64,000 bases of DNA from Thioalkalivibrio thiocyanoxidans ARh2 (GTDB taxonomy: Bacteria > Pseudomonadota > Gammaproteobacteria > Ectothiorhodospirales > Ectothiorhodospiraceae), in NCBI RefSeq assembly GCF_000385215.1, contig NZ_ARQK01000044.1, positions 1 through 64,000 on the forward strand. The letters are read 5' to 3'. Shown here in pieces: positions 12,178 to 42,747 of the stretch (within the stretch, counting starts at the first letter, position 1; each line of letters starts with the position of its first letter). The position numbers and the translations under genes are program-made. The notes below the pieces were generated by a model, which saw only the letters and a list, made by a program, of their open reading frames with translations, made no database searches and was not told the origin of the DNA.

Positions 12178-12807
12178 TCAGGATTTTTTGCTCAGCAGGT
12201 CGGCGAAGCCGTGGTTGACGTCGCGATGACCGGCCTCGTCTTCGCGTACGGCGCGGATTACATCCATCAGGCGTGCGTCCTTCGGCAGGTCCCAGTACTG
12301 GATGGCGCGGTCGGGCGCGGGGATGTTCTCGATCGCGCCGGTTTCCACTTCCTCCAGGTATTCCGTGTAACTGACGATCGCCTCTTCCTCGAAGTAGCCG
12401 ATGATGCGGTGCGCGGTACGCGGGGAGACGACATAGATCAGGAAATACAGGGTGTAGAAGAAACCCTGGGCGAGGATGATCAGAACCCGTTCAAACCAGC
12501 TCGGCGACGCGATCTCGATGAACGTGAGCAGGTGCATCCGCTCGTTCTCGGCCTCGTCCATCAGGGTGCTGATCCAGCCGTGGTCGTCCTCCATGCGCCG
12601 CAGCGAACGCAGGTGCCGTAACGTGGCGCCGACCATGCCGGGGACACCGGCGACCGTCTCCAGTACCACTGCGCGATGGCCGTAGCGGCGAGCAAAGAAA
12701 GTATCCGCGAAAAAGCGCATCAGGGCGGTAAATGCTCGCGCAACACGGTCGGAGACATCGCGTGGTTTGTGGTGGTGCGTCAGGTCCGTTTCCTGGTCGA
12801 TGCTCAT
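12178..12807 (-). CDS. aox: alternative oxidase (di-iron ubiquinol oxidase)
   Basis: Protein of 209 aa with the complete AOX di-iron signature: LETVAG (first Glu), NERMHL (ExxH), FEEEA (third Glu) and DEAGHRD (ExxH). Two hydrophobic stretches (around VLIILAQGFFYTLYFLIYVV and the preceding helix) fit monotopic binding to the inner membrane. It oxidises ubiquinol and reduces oxygen to water without proton pumping. The ATG at 12807 has GGAG about 8 nt upstream; the longer open frame has no AOX character before it. It is divergent from the BMC/Nudix pair across 286 bp. Bacterial AOX is patchily distributed, and horizontal gain is possible. Confidence 0.93.
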   Translation of the reverse strand: MSIDQETDLTHHHKPRDVSDRVARAFTALMRFFADTFFARRYGHRAVVLETVAGVPGMVGATLRHLRSLRRMEDDHGWISTLMDEAENERMHLLTFIEIASPSWFERVLIILAQGFFYTLYFLIYVVSPRTAHRIIGYFEEEAIVSYTEYLEEVETGAIENIPAPDRAIQYWDLPKDARLMDVIRAVREDEAGHRDVNHGFADLLSKKS

Positions 12808-13093
12808 GCAGGCTCCAGGGGTTGGGCGTGAAAAGCGTGAACGCCTTCCCCCTGAGACTAGGGGCCGCCAGGCGGAATGTCGCGGGGGTATTTCACAGAC
12901 TGGGGCCGGTGCCATGTGTCCGGACCGGTCGCCTGACATTGAGCTTCTTGGGCGGGGCGTTCACAATACGCCCCTTTATTCCCGTGTGCGCGAACAAGCC
13001 GGCGGTTTTCTGGCGGCTCAAATTCGTGTGTGCGGAGTCCCGCGCGGGCCCGGGCCGCACGGGGGTTAACGGGGTGTTTCCCTACGCAAATCG

Positions 13094-15087: not shown

Positions 15088-15235
15088 CGGTGCCACAGGT
15101 CTCGTCAGGCCGTCCGACGAAGGCGCGCCGAGGCGCCTTCGGGTGGGCTGCACACGCCATGGCCATGCGGCCAAGTCTGTTGACGTGTGCCTCCGGCACG
15201 GGTGGCCGGAGCGACTACTCCCCTGAGGGTGCGCG
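15088..15235 (-). promoter_or_regulatory. yybP-ykoY manganese riboswitch
   Basis: On the minus strand the leader of the UPF0016 gene has the three family hallmarks in the right order. GGGGAGTAG lies at 15215-15223, CGTCAACA at 15178-15185 in the L3 position, and GAGACC near 15100-15106 at the 3' side. The P1 helix can form from CAGG directly 5' of the first motif and CCTG directly 3' of the last. About 95 nt remain between the aptamer and the start codon for an expression platform. yybP-ykoY elements bind Mn2+ and switch on Mn export genes, including UPF0016 members. The exact ends are estimated. Confidence 0.85.
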
Positions 15236-19304: not shown

Positions 19305-19557
19305 CAAGACCTCCTCCCGGTCATGCCGCTCTGGCTTATGCCTCGACTATAGACCCGCCATTGGCGATGGACCGTACGATTGGCTCCATAACGGGTTTCG
19401 AGCGTGCCCGAGCTCCGCCTCTGCAGGGCTTTGGGTCGCCGCTCACGGCCCGTTCCTTCCGGGAATACGGCCGGAAAACGGTATGGGTCGACGTGGAAGT
19501 GGGTGCAAAGCCTGTCTATGTTCTGGGAATGACCTCTTCCATCGGCAGGTGAACGAT

Positions 19558-20874
19558 ATGCGGGCACACTGGCTGGTCCTGACGCTGTTCGCGGTGGGTG
19601 GTGTCGCCCAGGGCGAAACCATCACTGCGGACGCGCTGGTCGACGATGCGCGCGCGGCGACCACGGAGGTTGACCGCGAAGGGCTGGAGGACATGATCGC
19701 GAACGAACCGGATCACGTGCTGATCGATGTCCGTTCGCACCAGGAGATCGAGCTGGGTGGTGGCCAGATCCGCTCGCACCTCACGCTGAATATCCCGCGC
19801 GGGGAGCTGGAGTTTCGAATCCCGGGCGAGGTCTCCGACCTGGACACGCCCATCGTCGTCTACAGCGACGAGAACCGCCGTTCGGCCCTCGCGGCCCAGA
19901 CGCTGCAGCGCATGGGCTATACCAACGTGCACAACTACGCGGGCGGCTTCCCCGAATGGAAGGAGGCCGGTGGCCCCCTGTATGTGCTCGACAAGGCGCT
20001 GGATTCCTTCCTCTACGACATGCCGCAGGAGGTGACTGATGGCGTGTTGTCCGCGATCGGTGCCACTCAGCCATCGACTTACGAGAACTCGGGCCACAAC
20101 AACAACCTGTCGTTCATCATCACTGACGATGGCGTGGTGGTGATGAACGCCGGCGACAACTACCTGCTGGCCCAGTCCCTGCACGAGGAGATCAAGAAGC
20201 GCACCGAGCAGCCGGTGAAGTACGTAGTGCTGGAAAACGCCCAGGGGCATGCGATGCTCGGCATGACCTACTGGCAGGAGCAGGGCGCCACCGTGATCGC
20301 GCACGAGGACGCCGCGCGCGAGATCGAGCAGAACGGCCAGCGCAGCCTGGAGAGCGCACCGAACCGTACCCGCGACAAGGCGTTCCTGACCGAGCTCGGC
20401 ACGCCGGACAAGATCTTCGAGGATCGCGTCGACCTCGACATGGGTGGCGAGACCATTGAGGTGCTCTACCTCGGCCCCGCGCACGCCCCGGGGGATATCG
20501 CCCTGTGGGCCCCGGACCGCAAGACGCTGATCACCGGCGATCTCGCCTTCCACGAGCGCATGCTGCCGATCTTCGAGTACACCGACACCGCCGGCTGGAT
20601 CGAGACCTGGGACAAGCTGGAGGCGATTGAGGCCGACTACATCATTCCGGGGCACGGTGGTCCGGTGACCGACTTCGAGCAACTGCGCAAGTACACCCTC
20701 GATTACCTCGTTTTCCTGCGCGCGGAGGTGCAGGAGATCCTCGATACCGGCGGCACGCTGAACGACGCCTACAACATCGACCAGTCGGCCTACCGCCACC
20801 TGGACACCTACGACGAGCTCAACCGGCAGAACGCCGGTCGCGTCTTCCGCGCCATGGAGTTCGAGGACTTCTGA
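19558..20874 (+). CDS. secreted rhodanese / metallo-beta-lactamase fusion with substituted active sites
   Basis: Protein of 438 aa with signal peptide MRAHWLVLTLFAVGGVAQG. A rhodanese-like domain spans about 40-135; its active-site loop reads IVVYSDENRRSA, so the usual Cys is Ser. An MBL-fold domain (about 165-400) resembles the SoxH-like quinoprotein-relay hydrolases. It keeps GPAHAPGD, ITGDLAF and IIPGHGGP, but the HxHxDH loop is replaced by ENAQGHAML, so at least one metal site is degraded. The ATG at 19558 has AGGTGA 6 nt upstream. A binding, chaperone or redox-sensing role is more likely than standard sulfurtransferase or hydrolase activity, but this is untested. Confidence 0.82.
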   Translation: MRAHWLVLTLFAVGGVAQGETITADALVDDARAATTEVDREGLEDMIANEPDHVLIDVRSHQEIELGGGQIRSHLTLNIPRGELEFRIPGEVSDLDTPIVVYSDENRRSALAAQTLQRMGYTNVHNYAGGFPEWKEAGGPLYVLDKALDSFLYDMPQEVTDGVLSAIGATQPSTYENSGHNNNLSFIITDDGVVVMNAGDNYLLAQSLHEEIKKRTEQPVKYVVLENAQGHAMLGMTYWQEQGATVIAHEDAAREIEQNGQRSLESAPNRTRDKAFLTELGTPDKIFEDRVDLDMGGETIEVLYLGPAHAPGDIALWAPDRKTLITGDLAFHERMLPIFEYTDTAGWIETWDKLEAIEADYIIPGHGGPVTDFEQLRKYTLDYLVFLRAEVQEILDTGGTLNDAYNIDQSAYRHLDTYDELNRQNAGRVFRAMEFEDF

Positions 20875-21048
20875 CCCGCTCGAATCCACTGGGGCAATCG
20901 CCTCTGGTGGGGACAATTTCGGCAAGCCGCGGATCGCCGCACTCTGAGGCTTGACTCGCGTGTCCTTCCGGCGTGACTCTGAATATAGATGTATGGGGAA
21001 TCAATGTTTTTCGGGCCGGCGATCAGTCGATCCAACGGAGGTCGGGCA

Positions 21049-22545
21049 ATGAAAAGGACGCAGACAGAAGCAGCAGCTTCGGCCATCGGCCGCAGCCATC
21101 CGGGCACACGCCTTGCGCTTTGGTGCTTGATCGGCCTGTTGTGGTGGGTGGCTTCCGCGGCCCAGGCCTCGACAGGACCGGACTTCAGCGAACTGTTCGG
21201 TGACAGCGACTTTATCGAGATCATCGAGCGCGACGAGGGGCTGGAGACGCGGCCGACCGGGTACGTCTCGCAGGATGTCGAGCCGGATCATGTGTTCCGG
21301 ATCGACCTCAACGAGGGCCAGGTGCCGATCGGGCAGGGCGTGGTCTACGACGGCTTTCTGACCGACGGCAAGTTGCCGGGCCCGACCCTGCGCGTGACCG
21401 AGGGCGACATCGTGCGCATGGAGATCACCAACAGCGGGGCGGTGATGCACGGGGCATCCATCCATGCCGCCTATACCCAGACCTCGAAGCACGTCGGCTC
21501 GATCATGCCCGGCCAGACCAAGTCGGTCACCTTCCGCGCGACCACGCCAGGGGTCTTCATGTATCACTGTGCGCCGGGCGGCCATGCCATCCCGATGCAT
21601 GTGATGTTCGGCCAGTACGGGATGATCGTCGTCGAGCCGCGCGACGAGCCCTACAAGCTGGAAGAGGACCTGGGCCAGGAACCCGATCTGAAGCTCTACA
21701 TGCTGCAGCACGAGCTGTACGCCAGCGGCAAGGAGGCGGTGGAGGGCGATGTCAGCTACACCGCCTTCAATGGCGAGCTGTTCCGCTACGTGGAAAACCC
21801 GATCCCGGTGCGTCCCGGTGATTACGTGCGCATGTACTTCCTGAACGTGGGGCCCAACCTGCTTTCGACCTTCCATATCGTCGGCATCGTCTGGGACTAC
21901 GTGTACTGGCAGGGCCACCCCGAGGCCATCTGGCCGGGCGGACAGACGGTTACCGCGGGTCCCTCGGACTCCTGGGTGATCGAGTTCCGGATACCGCCTG
22001 AGGAAGGCGTCTACACCATGCTGGATCATGGCGTGGGGGCCACCAGCCGTGGCGCTATCGGGTTGCTGGATGCCCGCGCGGATGCCGATACGCCTTCCGA
22101 GATCCTGGCCGAGGGCCCGTCCTACGAATCGGAGGAACTTGAAGAACGGATCGGTGAAGCGCAGCGGATCATTTCGCCGTTCGGCATCCCCGATGCGGAT
22201 GCCAGTCCGGTACCCGCGCGGGCGGATCGGCCCGTTCGGTTCAGCTCCGACATCGAGGAAGTCGTGATCGAGATGAAGGGCAATGCCTTCTACCCGAAGG
22301 TCGTCGAGGTGGCACCGGGCACAAAGATCACCTGGGTCAACGAGGATGTCTTCACCTACGGACAAGGCGAGCCCTCGGGGGCGCACAACGCCGTAGCCAT
22401 GAGCGGTCCGGAGTCGTTCGCGACCTCAATGCTGGCGCACGCCGAGAGCGACAGCGTCACCCTGACCGAGCCGGGCACCTACGACTACATCTGCGCCCCG
22501 CACCCCTACATGCAGGGCCGCATCATCGTGCGCGACAGCGACTGA
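21049..22545 (+). CDS. NirK/AniA-like multicopper protein with C-terminal cupredoxin
   Basis: Protein of 498 aa with a signal peptide ending AAQA. Two NirK-type cupredoxin domains fill about 55-365. Type 2 copper His ligands are present (SIH, YHC, LDHG), as is the catalytic-type His (TFHIVG). The catalytic Asp position (DFH in NirK) is Ser (HGASIH). At the type 1 site His, Cys and His are kept, but the axial Met (GMYG in AniA) is Gln (FGQYG). A third, plastocyanin-like domain (about 405-498) has ligands in GAHN, ICAP and HPYM. It could be a nitrite reductase variant or another copper oxidoreductase. GGAGG precedes the ATG. It lies between the rhodanese-MBL gene and a haem protein gene. Confidence 0.82.
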   Translation: MKRTQTEAAASAIGRSHPGTRLALWCLIGLLWWVASAAQASTGPDFSELFGDSDFIEIIERDEGLETRPTGYVSQDVEPDHVFRIDLNEGQVPIGQGVVYDGFLTDGKLPGPTLRVTEGDIVRMEITNSGAVMHGASIHAAYTQTSKHVGSIMPGQTKSVTFRATTPGVFMYHCAPGGHAIPMHVMFGQYGMIVVEPRDEPYKLEEDLGQEPDLKLYMLQHELYASGKEAVEGDVSYTAFNGELFRYVENPIPVRPGDYVRMYFLNVGPNLLSTFHIVGIVWDYVYWQGHPEAIWPGGQTVTAGPSDSWVIEFRIPPEEGVYTMLDHGVGATSRGAIGLLDARADADTPSEILAEGPSYESEELEERIGEAQRIISPFGIPDADASPVPARADRPVRFSSDIEEVVIEMKGNAFYPKVVEVAPGTKITWVNEDVFTYGQGEPSGAHNAVAMSGPESFATSMLAHAESDSVTLTEPGTYDYICAPHPYMQGRIIVRDSD

Positions 22546-22970: not shown

Positions 22971-24302
22971 ATGAAGAAAACACTGATGGCCCTTGCGGTC
23001 GCAGCCGCCTTCCCGGCTCTGGCGCTGGCCGAACCGCGTCTCGTGGACACGGATCGTAATGTCTTTATTCCCGCCGAAGAGGATGCCCGCGCCGTCCTGC
23101 GGGTTGCCGCGGTCTATAACGACGAAGACTTCCGCATCCACTACGAGTACGAGACCGATACCCCCAGCTGGTATCACCAGGTCTGGCGCTACGAGGATGG
23201 CGAGTGGGTGCGCTACGGCTCCGGCGGCCCGGGGCCGGACGAGCACGGCCTGTACGAGGACCGGATCTCCATGATGCTGGACGACGGCAAGGTGGAAGGC
23301 TTCGACCGCATGGGCGGGTGGATGACCGCGCACGACGGTATGCGCAGCTTGACCTCCGAGGTGGACGCGGATGCCGTTCGCGAGCATCCCAAGCTGGGCG
23401 GCGAACTCGGGCGCAGCGACGTACGCAAGTACCTCCCGCAGACCCGCGTCACGGACGACCCGGAAGAGACCTCTTGGGATCAGATTCTTGATGATGACGC
23501 CGTGGATCAGCTGCAGTCCGATGGCGTTTTCCTCGACCTGTGGCAGTGGCGCTCGCACCGCAGCCATCCGATGGGTTATGCGGACAACAATTACGTGCTG
23601 CATTACCGCCTGTCGTCCGAGGGCACCAGCATGTTCACGACCAACTGGGACGATGACGCGGATCAACCCGCCTGGATGTTCGATCCGGAGAAGGTCGGTG
23701 CCCCCGCCCTGGAGTGGGGGGCCCTGATCGCCCGCGAGTACGGGCAGGACGACGCCTATTACATCCACGAGGGCAACGCGGTCGCCTTTGATCCGGACCA
23801 CGACTGGCAGGAAGGCGACGTGATCCCGCAGCGGTTCCTGCAAGAGCCGAGCGGCGCCCGCGGCGCGATCCGTGCCGAGGGTGGCTACGAAGACGGCGCC
23901 TGGCGGATTGCGCTGACCCGTTCGCTCGAGGCCCCCAACGCCCGGGACAGCAAGACCCTGGAACACGGAGAGTCCTACAACGTCGCCTTCGCGGTTCACA
24001 GTGCCGCGGGCGCGCGCTGGCACCTGGTCTCGCTGCCGATGACCCTGGGGCTGGAAGACGAGGAGGCCGACATCGTGGCCCGGCGCGTCGATGGGGATCT
24101 GGACGACGCCGATCTGGAATGGACCGAGGTCGAGGTGTTCTACCCCGGTCAGATCACCTATCAGTTCCTGCACAGCGACGACCACCCTGGCCGCGAGCTG
24201 GTGCTTGAGGGCGAGCAGGGTGTGCGTGACCAGCACGATCTCGACACCCTGCCGGGCTTCATTGTCGACATGGAGCAGCAGCTTCTGCGCGACGCGGACT
24301 GA
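22971..24302 (+). CDS. ethylbenzene dehydrogenase-related haem-binding protein
   Basis: Protein of 443 aa with signal peptide MKKTLMALAVAAAFPALALA. It resembles the EB_dh family (PF09459), the haem-b-binding gamma subunit fold of ethylbenzene/dimethylsulfide/selenate dehydrogenases. Recognisable parts are VFLDLWQWRSHRSHPMGYAD, the central Trp/His-rich segment, WRIALTRSL and AFAVHSAAGARWHLVSLPM. Met and His near these segments are candidate axial ligands. No molybdenum catalytic subunit is present in the window, so it probably works alone as an electron carrier. The mature protein is very acidic. GGGAG is 7 nt upstream of the ATG. Confidence 0.78.
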   Translation: MKKTLMALAVAAAFPALALAEPRLVDTDRNVFIPAEEDARAVLRVAAVYNDEDFRIHYEYETDTPSWYHQVWRYEDGEWVRYGSGGPGPDEHGLYEDRISMMLDDGKVEGFDRMGGWMTAHDGMRSLTSEVDADAVREHPKLGGELGRSDVRKYLPQTRVTDDPEETSWDQILDDDAVDQLQSDGVFLDLWQWRSHRSHPMGYADNNYVLHYRLSSEGTSMFTTNWDDDADQPAWMFDPEKVGAPALEWGALIAREYGQDDAYYIHEGNAVAFDPDHDWQEGDVIPQRFLQEPSGARGAIRAEGGYEDGAWRIALTRSLEAPNARDSKTLEHGESYNVAFAVHSAAGARWHLVSLPMTLGLEDEEADIVARRVDGDLDDADLEWTEVEVFYPGQITYQFLHSDDHPGRELVLEGEQGVRDQHDLDTLPGFIVDMEQQLLRDAD

Positions 24303-40332: not shown

Positions 40333-42747
40333 TCAGTACAAATACTGCTGAAAGTCCACGAACACTTCTCGGATGTTGCTCACCGGCCCCAGCTCGTGCA
40401 CCGCGTCACCGAGGCTGTGGTACTTCAATTCAATCAGCTGGGGGAGCTTCGCCGTATCCAGTTCGCTTACGCCCTGAGCGACATAGTGATCGAGCACGAA
40501 TCTCAGAAATTCCTGCTGTCTGTAGTCGTGTCCCTGGAAGATGCGCTCCTTGTGGGCATCGACTCGTTCCGCCCGGGTGACCGGCGCCATGTTGAAGGCG
40601 ATGTAGGCCAGGACGTCGTATAGATCGCTGTTTTCGGCCTCGATCAGCTTGCCGACCTCGGCCAACTGTTGCGTGCCATAGCCCTTTTCCTCCAGCCCCT
40701 CCAGCAGGCTCTTCCGGGTATCCGGGCGGCTCCACAGGCGGCGAAGCTCATCTTCGTCCTGGAAGAGCTCTGGTAGATCGCCGAACAGGCGCTGGATGAA
40801 TTCAGCGGCAGAGATGGGCTTGCCGTCCGGGCCCCAGAAGCTGGTCGCCGTCATGTGCTGGATGGCGCGTTCCTTGCCGTCGCCCAGGCGGATCTTCACC
40901 TTGCGGCGTTTCTCGCAGATGCAGGGCCATTCGCCGCAGACCTCGCAAGGTTCCGGCGGCTCCTTCTCGCAAACACAAGGCCGCTCGCCGCAAACAGGGC
41001 AGGGCTGCGGAGGCTCCGTGGTGCAACTACAAGGGCTGTTGCCGCATCGCTCGCAGGGTTCGGGCGGCAAGGGCTCGCCATCCCACTCCGGATCGTTAAA
41101 GTGCTCGTAGGCCTTCACGAAGTCGTAGATCGTGAAGTAGTCCTTGCCCTCAAACAGGCGCGTACCGCGACCGATGATCTGCTTGAACTCGATCATGCTG
41201 TTCACCGGCCGCATCAGCACGATGTTGCGCACGTTGCGGGCATCCACGCCGGTGGAGAGCTTCTGCGAGGTGGTGAGGATGGTCGGGATGGTCTTTTCGT
41301 TGTCCTGGAACTGCTTCAGGAAGCGCTCGCCCTCCTTGCCGTCGTTGGCGGTGACGCGCTCGCAGTAGTGCGGGTCCTTGCTGGTCTTGAGCTGGTTGAT
41401 CAGGTCGCGCACTGCCAGCGCGTGTTCCTGGGTGGCGCAGAACACCAGCGTCTTCTCGCGCGGGTCGATCTGCTTCATGAACAGCTTCACGCGGTAGCGC
41501 TCGCGCTCCTGGATCTCGATGACCCGGTTGAAGTCGTCCTCGGTGTAGCGCCGCCCTTGCTCCACCTCGCCCTCGATGATCTCGTCATCCGCCGTGTAGA
41601 CGTATTCATCCAGCGTGGTGGCGATCTGCCGCACCTTGAACGGGGTCAGGAAGCCATCGTTGATGCCATCCTTCAGCGAGTAGATGTAGACCGGCTCGCC
41701 GAAGTAGGCGTAGGTGTCGGCGTTCACCGTGCGCTTCGGCGTGGCGGTCAGGCCAAGCTGCACGGCGGGCTGGAAATACTCGAGGATGCCGCGCCAGTTG
41801 CTCTCGTCGTTGGCGCCGCCCCGGTGGCACTCGTCGATGATGATGAAATCGAAGAAATCCGGCGGGTAGTCGCCAAAATTCGGTGCGGGGTGGCCCGCGG
41901 CATCGCGCCCGGTCATAAAAGTTTGGAAGATGGTGAAGAACACATTGCCGTTCTTCGGCACCCGACCTTTCTTGCGGATCACCTCCGGATCGATCCGCAC
42001 CAGCGCATCCTCGGGAAAGGCGGAAAAGTCGTTGAAGGCCTGATTGGCCAGGATGTTGCGATCCGCCAGAAACAGGATGCGCGGCTGCCGCCCCGGCGTG
42101 CCGGCAGCACGCGCCGCCAGACTCCAGCGCGCATGGAACAGCTTCCAGGCAATCTGGAAGGCGATGGCCGTCTTGCCGGTCCCGGTCGCCAGGGTCAGCA
42201 GAATGCGATCCCGCCCCGCGGCAACCGCCTCCAGCGCCTGGTTGATGGCGTTGTGCTGGTAGTAGCGCGCCTGCCAGAAGCCGCCCTTGTCCTCGAACGG
42301 CACGGCCCCGAAGCGCTCCCGCCAGGTGTCCTGCGCGTCGCCGCCCGCGCCGAAGGTCTCCACCCACAGATCATCCGGCGACGGCCAGGCCTCCACAGGG
42401 CCCTCCACGCCGGTTGCCATGTCCACCCGGTAGATGGCGTCACCATTGGTGCAGTAGGCGAAGCGCGCCTGCAGGCGCTCGGCATAGCGCTTGGCCTGGG
42501 CGAGCCCCTCGGTCACCGGCAGGCTGCGCTTCTTGGCCTCGATCACCGCCAGCTTCTGGCCGCGGTAGGTCAGCACGTAGTCGGCAATGTCCTGCCTGGC
42601 TCGCTTGCCGCCACCCTGCAGCCGGCCGAGGGTGATCACCTCGCGCCGCACCCGGCTGGCCTCCACCACGCCCCAGCCGGCCTCCTTCAAGGCCGGGTCG
42701 ATCAGTTCGGCGCGGGTGTCTGCCTCATTGAGGCCGGCCTCGTTCAT
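40333..42747 (-). CDS. hsdR: type I restriction enzyme R subunit
   Basis: Protein of 804 aa, EcoEI-like size. The N-terminal nuclease region has DYVLTYRGQKLAVIEAKK (D...ExK). The translocase has Walker A TLATGTGKTAIA, motif II IIDECHRGG, SNWRGILEYF, LGLTATP and the late motif MRPVNSMIEFKQIIGRGTR. A Cys-rich insert at about 560-615 holds three repeats of the form CxxCGxxPCxC, possibly zinc-binding. It translocates and cleaves unmodified DNA with HsdM2S. Its start overlaps the RhuM-Fic stop (ATGA at 42744-42747). Confidence 0.93.
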   Translation of the reverse strand: MNEAGLNEADTRAELIDPALKEAGWGVVEASRVRREVITLGRLQGGGKRARQDIADYVLTYRGQKLAVIEAKKRSLPVTEGLAQAKRYAERLQARFAYCTNGDAIYRVDMATGVEGPVEAWPSPDDLWVETFGAGGDAQDTWRERFGAVPFEDKGGFWQARYYQHNAINQALEAVAAGRDRILLTLATGTGKTAIAFQIAWKLFHARWSLAARAAGTPGRQPRILFLADRNILANQAFNDFSAFPEDALVRIDPEVIRKKGRVPKNGNVFFTIFQTFMTGRDAAGHPAPNFGDYPPDFFDFIIIDECHRGGANDESNWRGILEYFQPAVQLGLTATPKRTVNADTYAYFGEPVYIYSLKDGINDGFLTPFKVRQIATTLDEYVYTADDEIIEGEVEQGRRYTEDDFNRVIEIQERERYRVKLFMKQIDPREKTLVFCATQEHALAVRDLINQLKTSKDPHYCERVTANDGKEGERFLKQFQDNEKTIPTILTTSQKLSTGVDARNVRNIVLMRPVNSMIEFKQIIGRGTRLFEGKDYFTIYDFVKAYEHFNDPEWDGEPLPPEPCERCGNSPCSCTTEPPQPCPVCGERPCVCEKEPPEPCEVCGEWPCICEKRRKVKIRLGDGKERAIQHMTATSFWGPDGKPISAAEFIQRLFGDLPELFQDEDELRRLWSRPDTRKSLLEGLEEKGYGTQQLAEVGKLIEAENSDLYDVLAYIAFNMAPVTRAERVDAHKERIFQGHDYRQQEFLRFVLDHYVAQGVSELDTAKLPQLIELKYHSLGDAVHELGPVSNIREVFVDFQQYLY

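Follow-up and report, generated by a model that had tools for sequence, protein, structure and literature searches.

Does a NirK-like protein that lacks both the catalytic aspartate (AspCAT) and the axial methionine of the type 1 copper, and carries a third cupredoxin domain at its C-terminus, still reduce nitrite? This question is raised by a gene in the window, that is, the whole stretch of 64,000 nucleotides of Thioalkalivibrio thiocyanoxidans ARh2 DNA analyzed here. With high probability, our results indicate that this gene encodes an exported, copper-containing nitrite reductase of the same type as TsNirK from Thermus scotoductus SA-01 (PDB 6hbe; Opperman et al. 2019, PMC6400189), which would convert nitrite to NO. 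The unusual residues are shared with TsNirK, which is both structurally solved and active, so that the window protein appears to add one more member to an established type.

Gene model and domain architecture

The nirK-type gene, encoding a three-domain protein of 498 amino acids, occupies positions 21049-22545 on the forward strand, an exact reading frame without internal stops. The sequence GGAGGT (21037-21042, forward strand), separated by six bases from the ATG at 21049, is a probable ribosome-binding site; an alternative in-frame ATG is present upstream, at 20989, and inspection of the sequence upstream of both candidate starts detected no GGAGGT-like site before it. Approximately the first 41 residues (21049-21171, forward strand) probably comprise an export signal, the boundary of which was set by eye and not with a prediction tool. 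The gene is single-copy in the host genome, where the sole other match scores 23 bits.

The protein consists of two NirK domains followed by a C-terminal cupredoxin, with Pfam matches to Cu-oxidase_3 (residues 95-199) and Copper-bind (residues 412-494). The third domain (22243-22530, forward strand), recognized from the Pfam match, from alignment and from a search with this domain alone that retrieved 6hbe first and amicyanins after it, is amicyanin-like, with His446, Cys482, His485 and Met488 as the copper ligands by alignment. An added cupredoxin with its own His/Cys/His/Met set, as described in the first-pass annotation, is indeed present. Among the solved structures compared by sequence, 6hbe is the best match (425 bits, residues 82-494), the runner-up scoring 141 bits. 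The scores against the NCBIfam models for copper nitrite reductase (TIGR02376; 137.3 bits, cut-off 296.3) and amicyanin (65 bits, cut-off 110) both fall below the curated thresholds and were counted against assigning the window protein to the TsNirK type.

Structure prediction, one of the checks that the first-pass annotation had asked for, led to the same protein. In a fold search with a model built from a 29-row alignment (mean pLDDT 76.9, pTM 0.76), the predicted fold matched 6hbe first, both listed chains of this structure leading with E-values of 5e-51 and 1e-49 and 46% identity, followed in third place by 9cck (E 1e-29). Around the copper loops (residues 140-146 and 178-185), the pLDDT drops below 50, and the model is therefore uninformative on copper geometry.

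Copper ligands and active-site residues

Residues were assigned by aligning the window protein first with 28 relatives and then, in an enlarged alignment, also with 6hbe and additional homologs. All the features in this section are on the forward strand. The sensing loop H134-G-A-S137-I-H139 (21448-21465), of the H-X4-H form, comprises a type 1 copper ligand (His134), a type 2 copper ligand (His139) and, between them, Ser137 in the place of AspCAT. The next group, H173-C174...H184...Q189 (21565-21615), provides a type 2 His, the type 1 Cys, a type 1 His and the axial ligand. The HisCAT place is filled by His276, which is accompanied by Val278 (21874-21882), and His327 (22027-22029) would be the type 2 ligand donated to the adjacent subunit, by analogy with His267 of TsNirK (PMC6400189).

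The alignment yields His134/Cys174/His184/Gln189 as the type 1 copper set, in which Gln189 is the predicted axial ligand, and His139/His173/His327 as the type 2 set. Both features of class I and II NirKs, AspCAT and the axial Met, are missing in the window protein. The first-pass annotation had read these changes correctly: DFH is replaced with SIH and the axial Met with Gln, according to the alignment with the family and 6hbe, and the type 2 histidines and the catalytic-type His are retained. The window protein and 6hbe are the same at 17 of the 17 active-site and ligand positions compared. Residues, domains, homology and fold match are all observed for the window protein itself.

Conservation and spread of the three-domain form

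We compared 33 distinct three-domain rows, namely the window protein, 28 loci (L003-L030), L033, L034, L083 and 6hbe. One of the 29 loci originally collected, L031, was dropped because it matched in the third domain only (33% identity), and same-genome repeats (L032, L035-L038, L101 and L105) were left out of the residue counts and the tree. The rows that lack the third cupredoxin came from Gammaproteobacteria, and were taken from the 30 best-scoring loci of 48 class-wide matches plus L041 and L042 from the genus search.

Ser at position 137 and Gln at position 189 are present in all 33 three-domain rows, which places these swaps beyond chance; this is a clade-wide state and not a one-off. The SIH motif varies to SFH in one subgroup and to SLH in one row. 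The third-domain ligand set is found in 31 of the 33 rows, the two exceptions (L029 and L030) being cut by contig ends. By contrast, the distinct homologs without a third cupredoxin have Asp at position 137 in 30 of 30 rows and Met at position 189 in 28 of 30, with Gln in L091 and Leu in L094. L091 (955-2154, forward strand) is a gammaproteobacterial NirK without the third domain in which AspCAT is present and the axial place is taken by Gln. Gln-ligated type 1 copper may thus occur outside the TsNirK clade, and we rejected Gln alone as a marker of the third domain.

A tree built from domains I and II places all 33 three-domain rows on one side of a single branch with 100/100 support, so that the window protein groups with 6hbe apart from other NirKs; the root is the midpoint, which gives no direction, and the long-branch warning includes 6hbe. 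In a class-wide sample of 369 genomes, 46 had matches at an E-value of 1e-20 or better, and the match extended into the third domain in only two of them, the host's own genome and G395. Relatives are encoded by four named Thioalkalivibrio strains (85-93% identity) and a Thioalkalivibrio metagenome-assembled genome (MAG; 80%). The other carriers are MAGs of Wenzhouxiangellaceae, Lysobacteraceae, a gammaproteobacterium, Balneolaceae and other Bacteroidetes, Salinibacteraceae, Kiritimatiellae, Opitutia/Opitutales, Verrucomicrobiales and Myxococcales. Many of these MAGs have isolate names in CSSed, which we take to denote soda-lake sediment. The presence of carriers in several phyla suggests that the three-domain nirK has been exchanged between phyla.

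The placement of the genus is not new. In the NirK phylogeny of Pold et al. 2024, Thioalkalivibrio, Caldalkalibacillus and Thermus fall together in clade 5 (PMC10999283). In the passages and sections of that paper considered here, there is no mention of the Ser, the Gln or the third domain. As far as these sources go, the three-domain architecture and the genus placement are both already in print (PMC6400189, PMC10999283).

Proposed reaction and alternatives to nitrite reduction

In its structure report, TsNirK is described as having Ser78 in place of AspCAT, a first type 1 copper with Gln130 as axial ligand, and an amicyanin-like copper in the third domain; the values given are 3.2 Cu per monomer and, for nitrite, a turnover of 65 per second and a KM of 27 uM (PMC6400189). 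The distance between the third-domain copper and the first type 1 copper is ~14 A. A relay T1CuC -> T1CuN -> T2Cu was proposed from the structure and is not proven (PMC6400189). The same authors suggest that three-domain NirKs form a group of their own (PMC6400189).

Activity, trimeric state and copper distances would be carried over to the window protein from TsNirK. The expected enzyme is a trimer in which an outside donor, which we infer to be a cytochrome c or a small cupredoxin, would reduce the copper of the C-terminal cupredoxin. From this site, the Gln-ligated type 1 copper in domain I would receive the electron and hand it on, with Cys174-His173 as the bridge, to the type 2 copper at the interface of two subunits. 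There, nitrite would be reduced to NO, with Ser137 and His276 standing in the AspCAT and HisCAT places. The proposal in the first-pass annotation that the third domain could be a built-in electron donor is supported by this analogy, given the spacing of the coppers and the relay put forward for TsNirK.

The expectation of weak nitrite reduction or a different substrate, which the first-pass annotation had attached to the same residue changes, fared less well. The window protein could be a NirK relative that is weak on nitrite or acts mainly on another substrate, for instance, oxidizing hydroxylamine to NO, as the missing AspCAT might suggest, and the NirK of Nitrososphaera viennensis is indeed reported to oxidize hydroxylamine besides reducing nitrite (PMC6308003). 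However, the N. viennensis enzyme is described as less efficient on hydroxylamine than on nitrite (PMC6308003), the genes of the relatives of the window protein lie near nosZ, RIC and napA-type genes, and TsNirK, with the same Ser, Gln, HisCAT and third domain, is fast and has a low KM (PMC6400189), so that weak or changed activity need not be invoked. We consider this alternative very unlikely and, because TsNirK is active, reject loss of nitrite activity as the default; loss of the Asp alone does not imply lost or changed activity, which removes a false lead. The names of the Pfam families (Cu-oxidase) and the third place in the fold search of 9cck, which is termed a multi-copper oxidase with a C-terminal cupredoxin, might instead indicate a laccase-like, oxygen-reducing multicopper oxidase with a trinuclear copper cluster. 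Such a cluster would be expected to require HxH motifs. There is none in the 498 residues of the window protein, for which reason this candidate was rejected, and 9cck is far behind 6hbe in the fold search, making a multicopper oxidase the least credible of the readings considered.

Gene neighborhoods

Across the neighborhoods of the 28 relatives (L003-L030), the tested member of a gene cluster found in 8 loci (c1) is the RIC iron-sulfur repair protein (226 bits, cut-off 205), and the tested member of another (c8), found in 5 loci, is nitrous oxide reductase (NosZ; 891 bits, cut-off 625). One locus (L014) has a napA-type gene slightly under both NapA cut-offs (867 of 904 and 834 of 931). Cluster c5 adjoins nirK in L009-L013; of its three tested members, that of L009 is above the Pfam cytochrome c cut-off, and those of L010 and L013 are weak cytochrome c matches. 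A separate cupredoxin gene adjoins nirK in L020 and L028, scoring below the azurin cut-off in both, and lies ~3 kb away in L019, where it is above the Pfam cut-off. To judge from these matches, the neighbor genes of the relatives appear suitable as sources, donors and sinks serving a nitrite reductase.

In the window, a rhodanese fused to a SoxH-related metallo-hydrolase is encoded before nirK (19516-20874, forward strand), preceded by two DsrE-family genes and a TetR-type regulator, and an ethylbenzene dehydrogenase-like protein is encoded after it (22971-24302, forward strand; EB_dh, 172 bits). The comparison of 10 genome stretches does not support an operon of nirK with the flanking genes: the rhodanese/metallo-hydrolase gene that precedes nirK in the window is present in 6 of the stretches, one of which (G005) has no nirK, and the ethylbenzene dehydrogenase-like gene is limited to the window and G024, the latter without nirK. 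The gene order around nirK is shared and is kept without nirK in G005 and G024, which identifies nirK as an accessory gene.

The 174 bases upstream of nirK contain no FNR box with at most two mismatches, and the nearest FNR-like match (21211-21224) falls inside nirK. Over the entire window (1-64000), the FNR-like pattern TTGATNNNNATCAA has 18 matches with at most two mismatches, against 7.3 expected; none of 100 shuffles reaches 18, and many of the matches are within open frames. Elsewhere in the window, there is a manganese (yybP-ykoY) riboswitch (15104-15228, reverse strand; 53 bits, gathering score 45) and the R subunit of a type I restriction enzyme (40333-42747, reverse strand).

Nitrogen oxide genes in the host and the genus

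At least 78% identical nirK genes are present in 8 of 30 genomes of the genus. In the host genome, profile searches gave no nosZ propeller, NirS-type or cytochrome c552-type matches, and no narG match above the cut-off (the best reaching 103 of 1084 bits); the lack of a full narG was counted against the TsNirK-type assignment. Thus, nirK is the only nitrite reductase type found in the host among NirK, NirS and cytochrome c552. A 1191-aa protein with weak narG similarity is encoded on host contig 58 (L059:8867-12442, forward strand), has counterparts in G005 and G010 and matched no NCBIfam family.

Neither NirS nor cytochrome c552 was found in any of the 8 members of the genus that have nirK. 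According to Pold et al., a formate-dependent nitrite reductase is frequent in clade 5 genomes (PMC10999283), and its absence from all 8 nirK genomes, unlike that trend, was also counted against the TsNirK-type assignment. Cytochrome c552 matches occur in 9 of the 30 genomes, none of the 8 with nirK and 9 of the 22 without (p 0.067). They are absent from all close-kin genomes, so that kinship alone may explain the pattern, and mutual exclusion of nirK and cytochrome c552 was rejected.

Candidate genes for an NO reductase of the sNOR type lie on host contig 26 (L057:822-3558, reverse strand) and encode a CuA-type subunit, a COX1-like protein and a senC-like product. The CuA-type subunit gene precedes the COX1-like gene and reaches 69 of 148 bits with the CoxB model; the senC-like gene matched no NCBIfam family. 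The heme-copper oxidase-type protein has Asn in place of the HPEVY Tyr of the aligned oxidases. The pattern norSY-senC-orf1 presumably denotes an sNOR-type NO reductase, and we take the contig 26 genes to be of this type on the strength of the gene order and the missing Tyr. The candidate is present in G000, G001 and G029, all with nirK, and in G021 without nirK, that is, in 3 of 8 nirK genomes against 1 of 22 others (p 0.048; p 1.0 and 0.28 among close kin). In the five remaining nirK genomes, among them the 66% complete G019, there is no second large heme-copper oxidase-type gene that might serve as an NO reductase; each has one larger COX1 match (partial in G019) and short fragments. This, too, was counted against the TsNirK-type assignment.

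Alternative oxidase and the possible role of the enzyme

An alternative oxidase gene (12178-12939, reverse strand; PF01786, 280 bits) is located 8.3 kb from nirK and is a possible partner only. Among the 30 genomes of the genus, alternative oxidase is present in 7 of 8 with nirK and 2 of 22 others (p 0.0001), and wherever a genome has both genes (7 of 7), they lie 4.0-8.3 kb apart within a shared syntenic locus. G019, the eighth genome with nirK, is the incomplete one; its nirK contig spans 9,850 bases, and it has no RecC match. Among genomes with at least 73% RecC identity (n = 11), the counts are 7 of 7 with nirK and 2 of 4 without (p 0.11), and with the RecC cut at 70% (n = 15), 7 of 7 and 2 of 8 (p 0.007), both cuts having been set after inspection of the data. 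Shared ancestry and shared gene order may explain the association, so we treat the linkage between nirK and alternative oxidase as no more than a lead.

As with the external donor, we infer the role of the enzyme in the host. One role that would be compatible with its TsNirK-type identity lies outside denitrification: with the nearby alternative oxidase, the enzyme would form part of an aerobic or micro-oxic electron sink that tolerates NO, which seems possible but less likely than not. In favor of this role, the host genome lacks nosZ, NirS and a full narG, and alternative oxidase, whose distribution and proximity to nirK point the same way, is reported to belong to the NsrR regulon of Vibrio fischeri (PMC1274295), with work on its induction by NO cited elsewhere (PMC5156696). 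The case is weakened by kinship, since the association among close relatives depends on the RecC cut, by the candidate NO reductase in the host and two further nirK genomes, and by the missing FNR-type box in the 174 bases before nirK (up to two mismatches). A more elaborate proposal, which we regard as rather unlikely, is that haloalkaliphilic sulfur bacteria possess a small exchangeable NO module, in which the TsNirK-type enzyme would make NO under oxygen, the nearby alternative oxidase, taken as NO-tolerant, would keep the quinone pool oxidized, and a CuA-type NO reductase would remove NO in some strains. Such a module would put NirK to use outside denitrification proper, and the alternative oxidase link, if real, would point to NO production under oxygen in sulfur bacteria.

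Relationship to known copper proteins

The two-domain NirKs, such as AniA (1kbv) and those of Geobacillus (3wkq) and Nitrosomonas europaea (4kns), share with the window protein domains I and II, the type 2 histidines and HisCAT; the Asp and Met contrast rests on the gammaproteobacterial homologs without the third cupredoxin, not on these PDB entries. The heme-copper NirK of Ralstonia pickettii (3ziy and others) likewise has a redox domain tethered to the C-terminus of its NirK core, but its third domain is a cytochrome c, and the matches span the core only. The Nitrosopumilus maritimus copper protein 9cck also has a cupredoxin fused at the C-terminus but differs in showing only 22% identity and an rmsd of 10 A over the whole protein. 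NirK clade 5 includes Thioalkalivibrio by name, a match at the level of the genus name (PMC10999283).

The closest known system is TsNirK, with which the window protein shares the domain order, Ser at AspCAT, the axial Gln, the amicyanin-like third copper site, the type 2 ligands, HisCAT, the Val and the Gln/Thr pair, and from which it differs in sequence (46% identity in the fold alignment), host and gene neighborhood. Given that Ser for Asp and Gln for Met accompany the third domain across several phyla, the TsNirK chemistry is that of a stable lineage rather than a peculiarity of Thermus.
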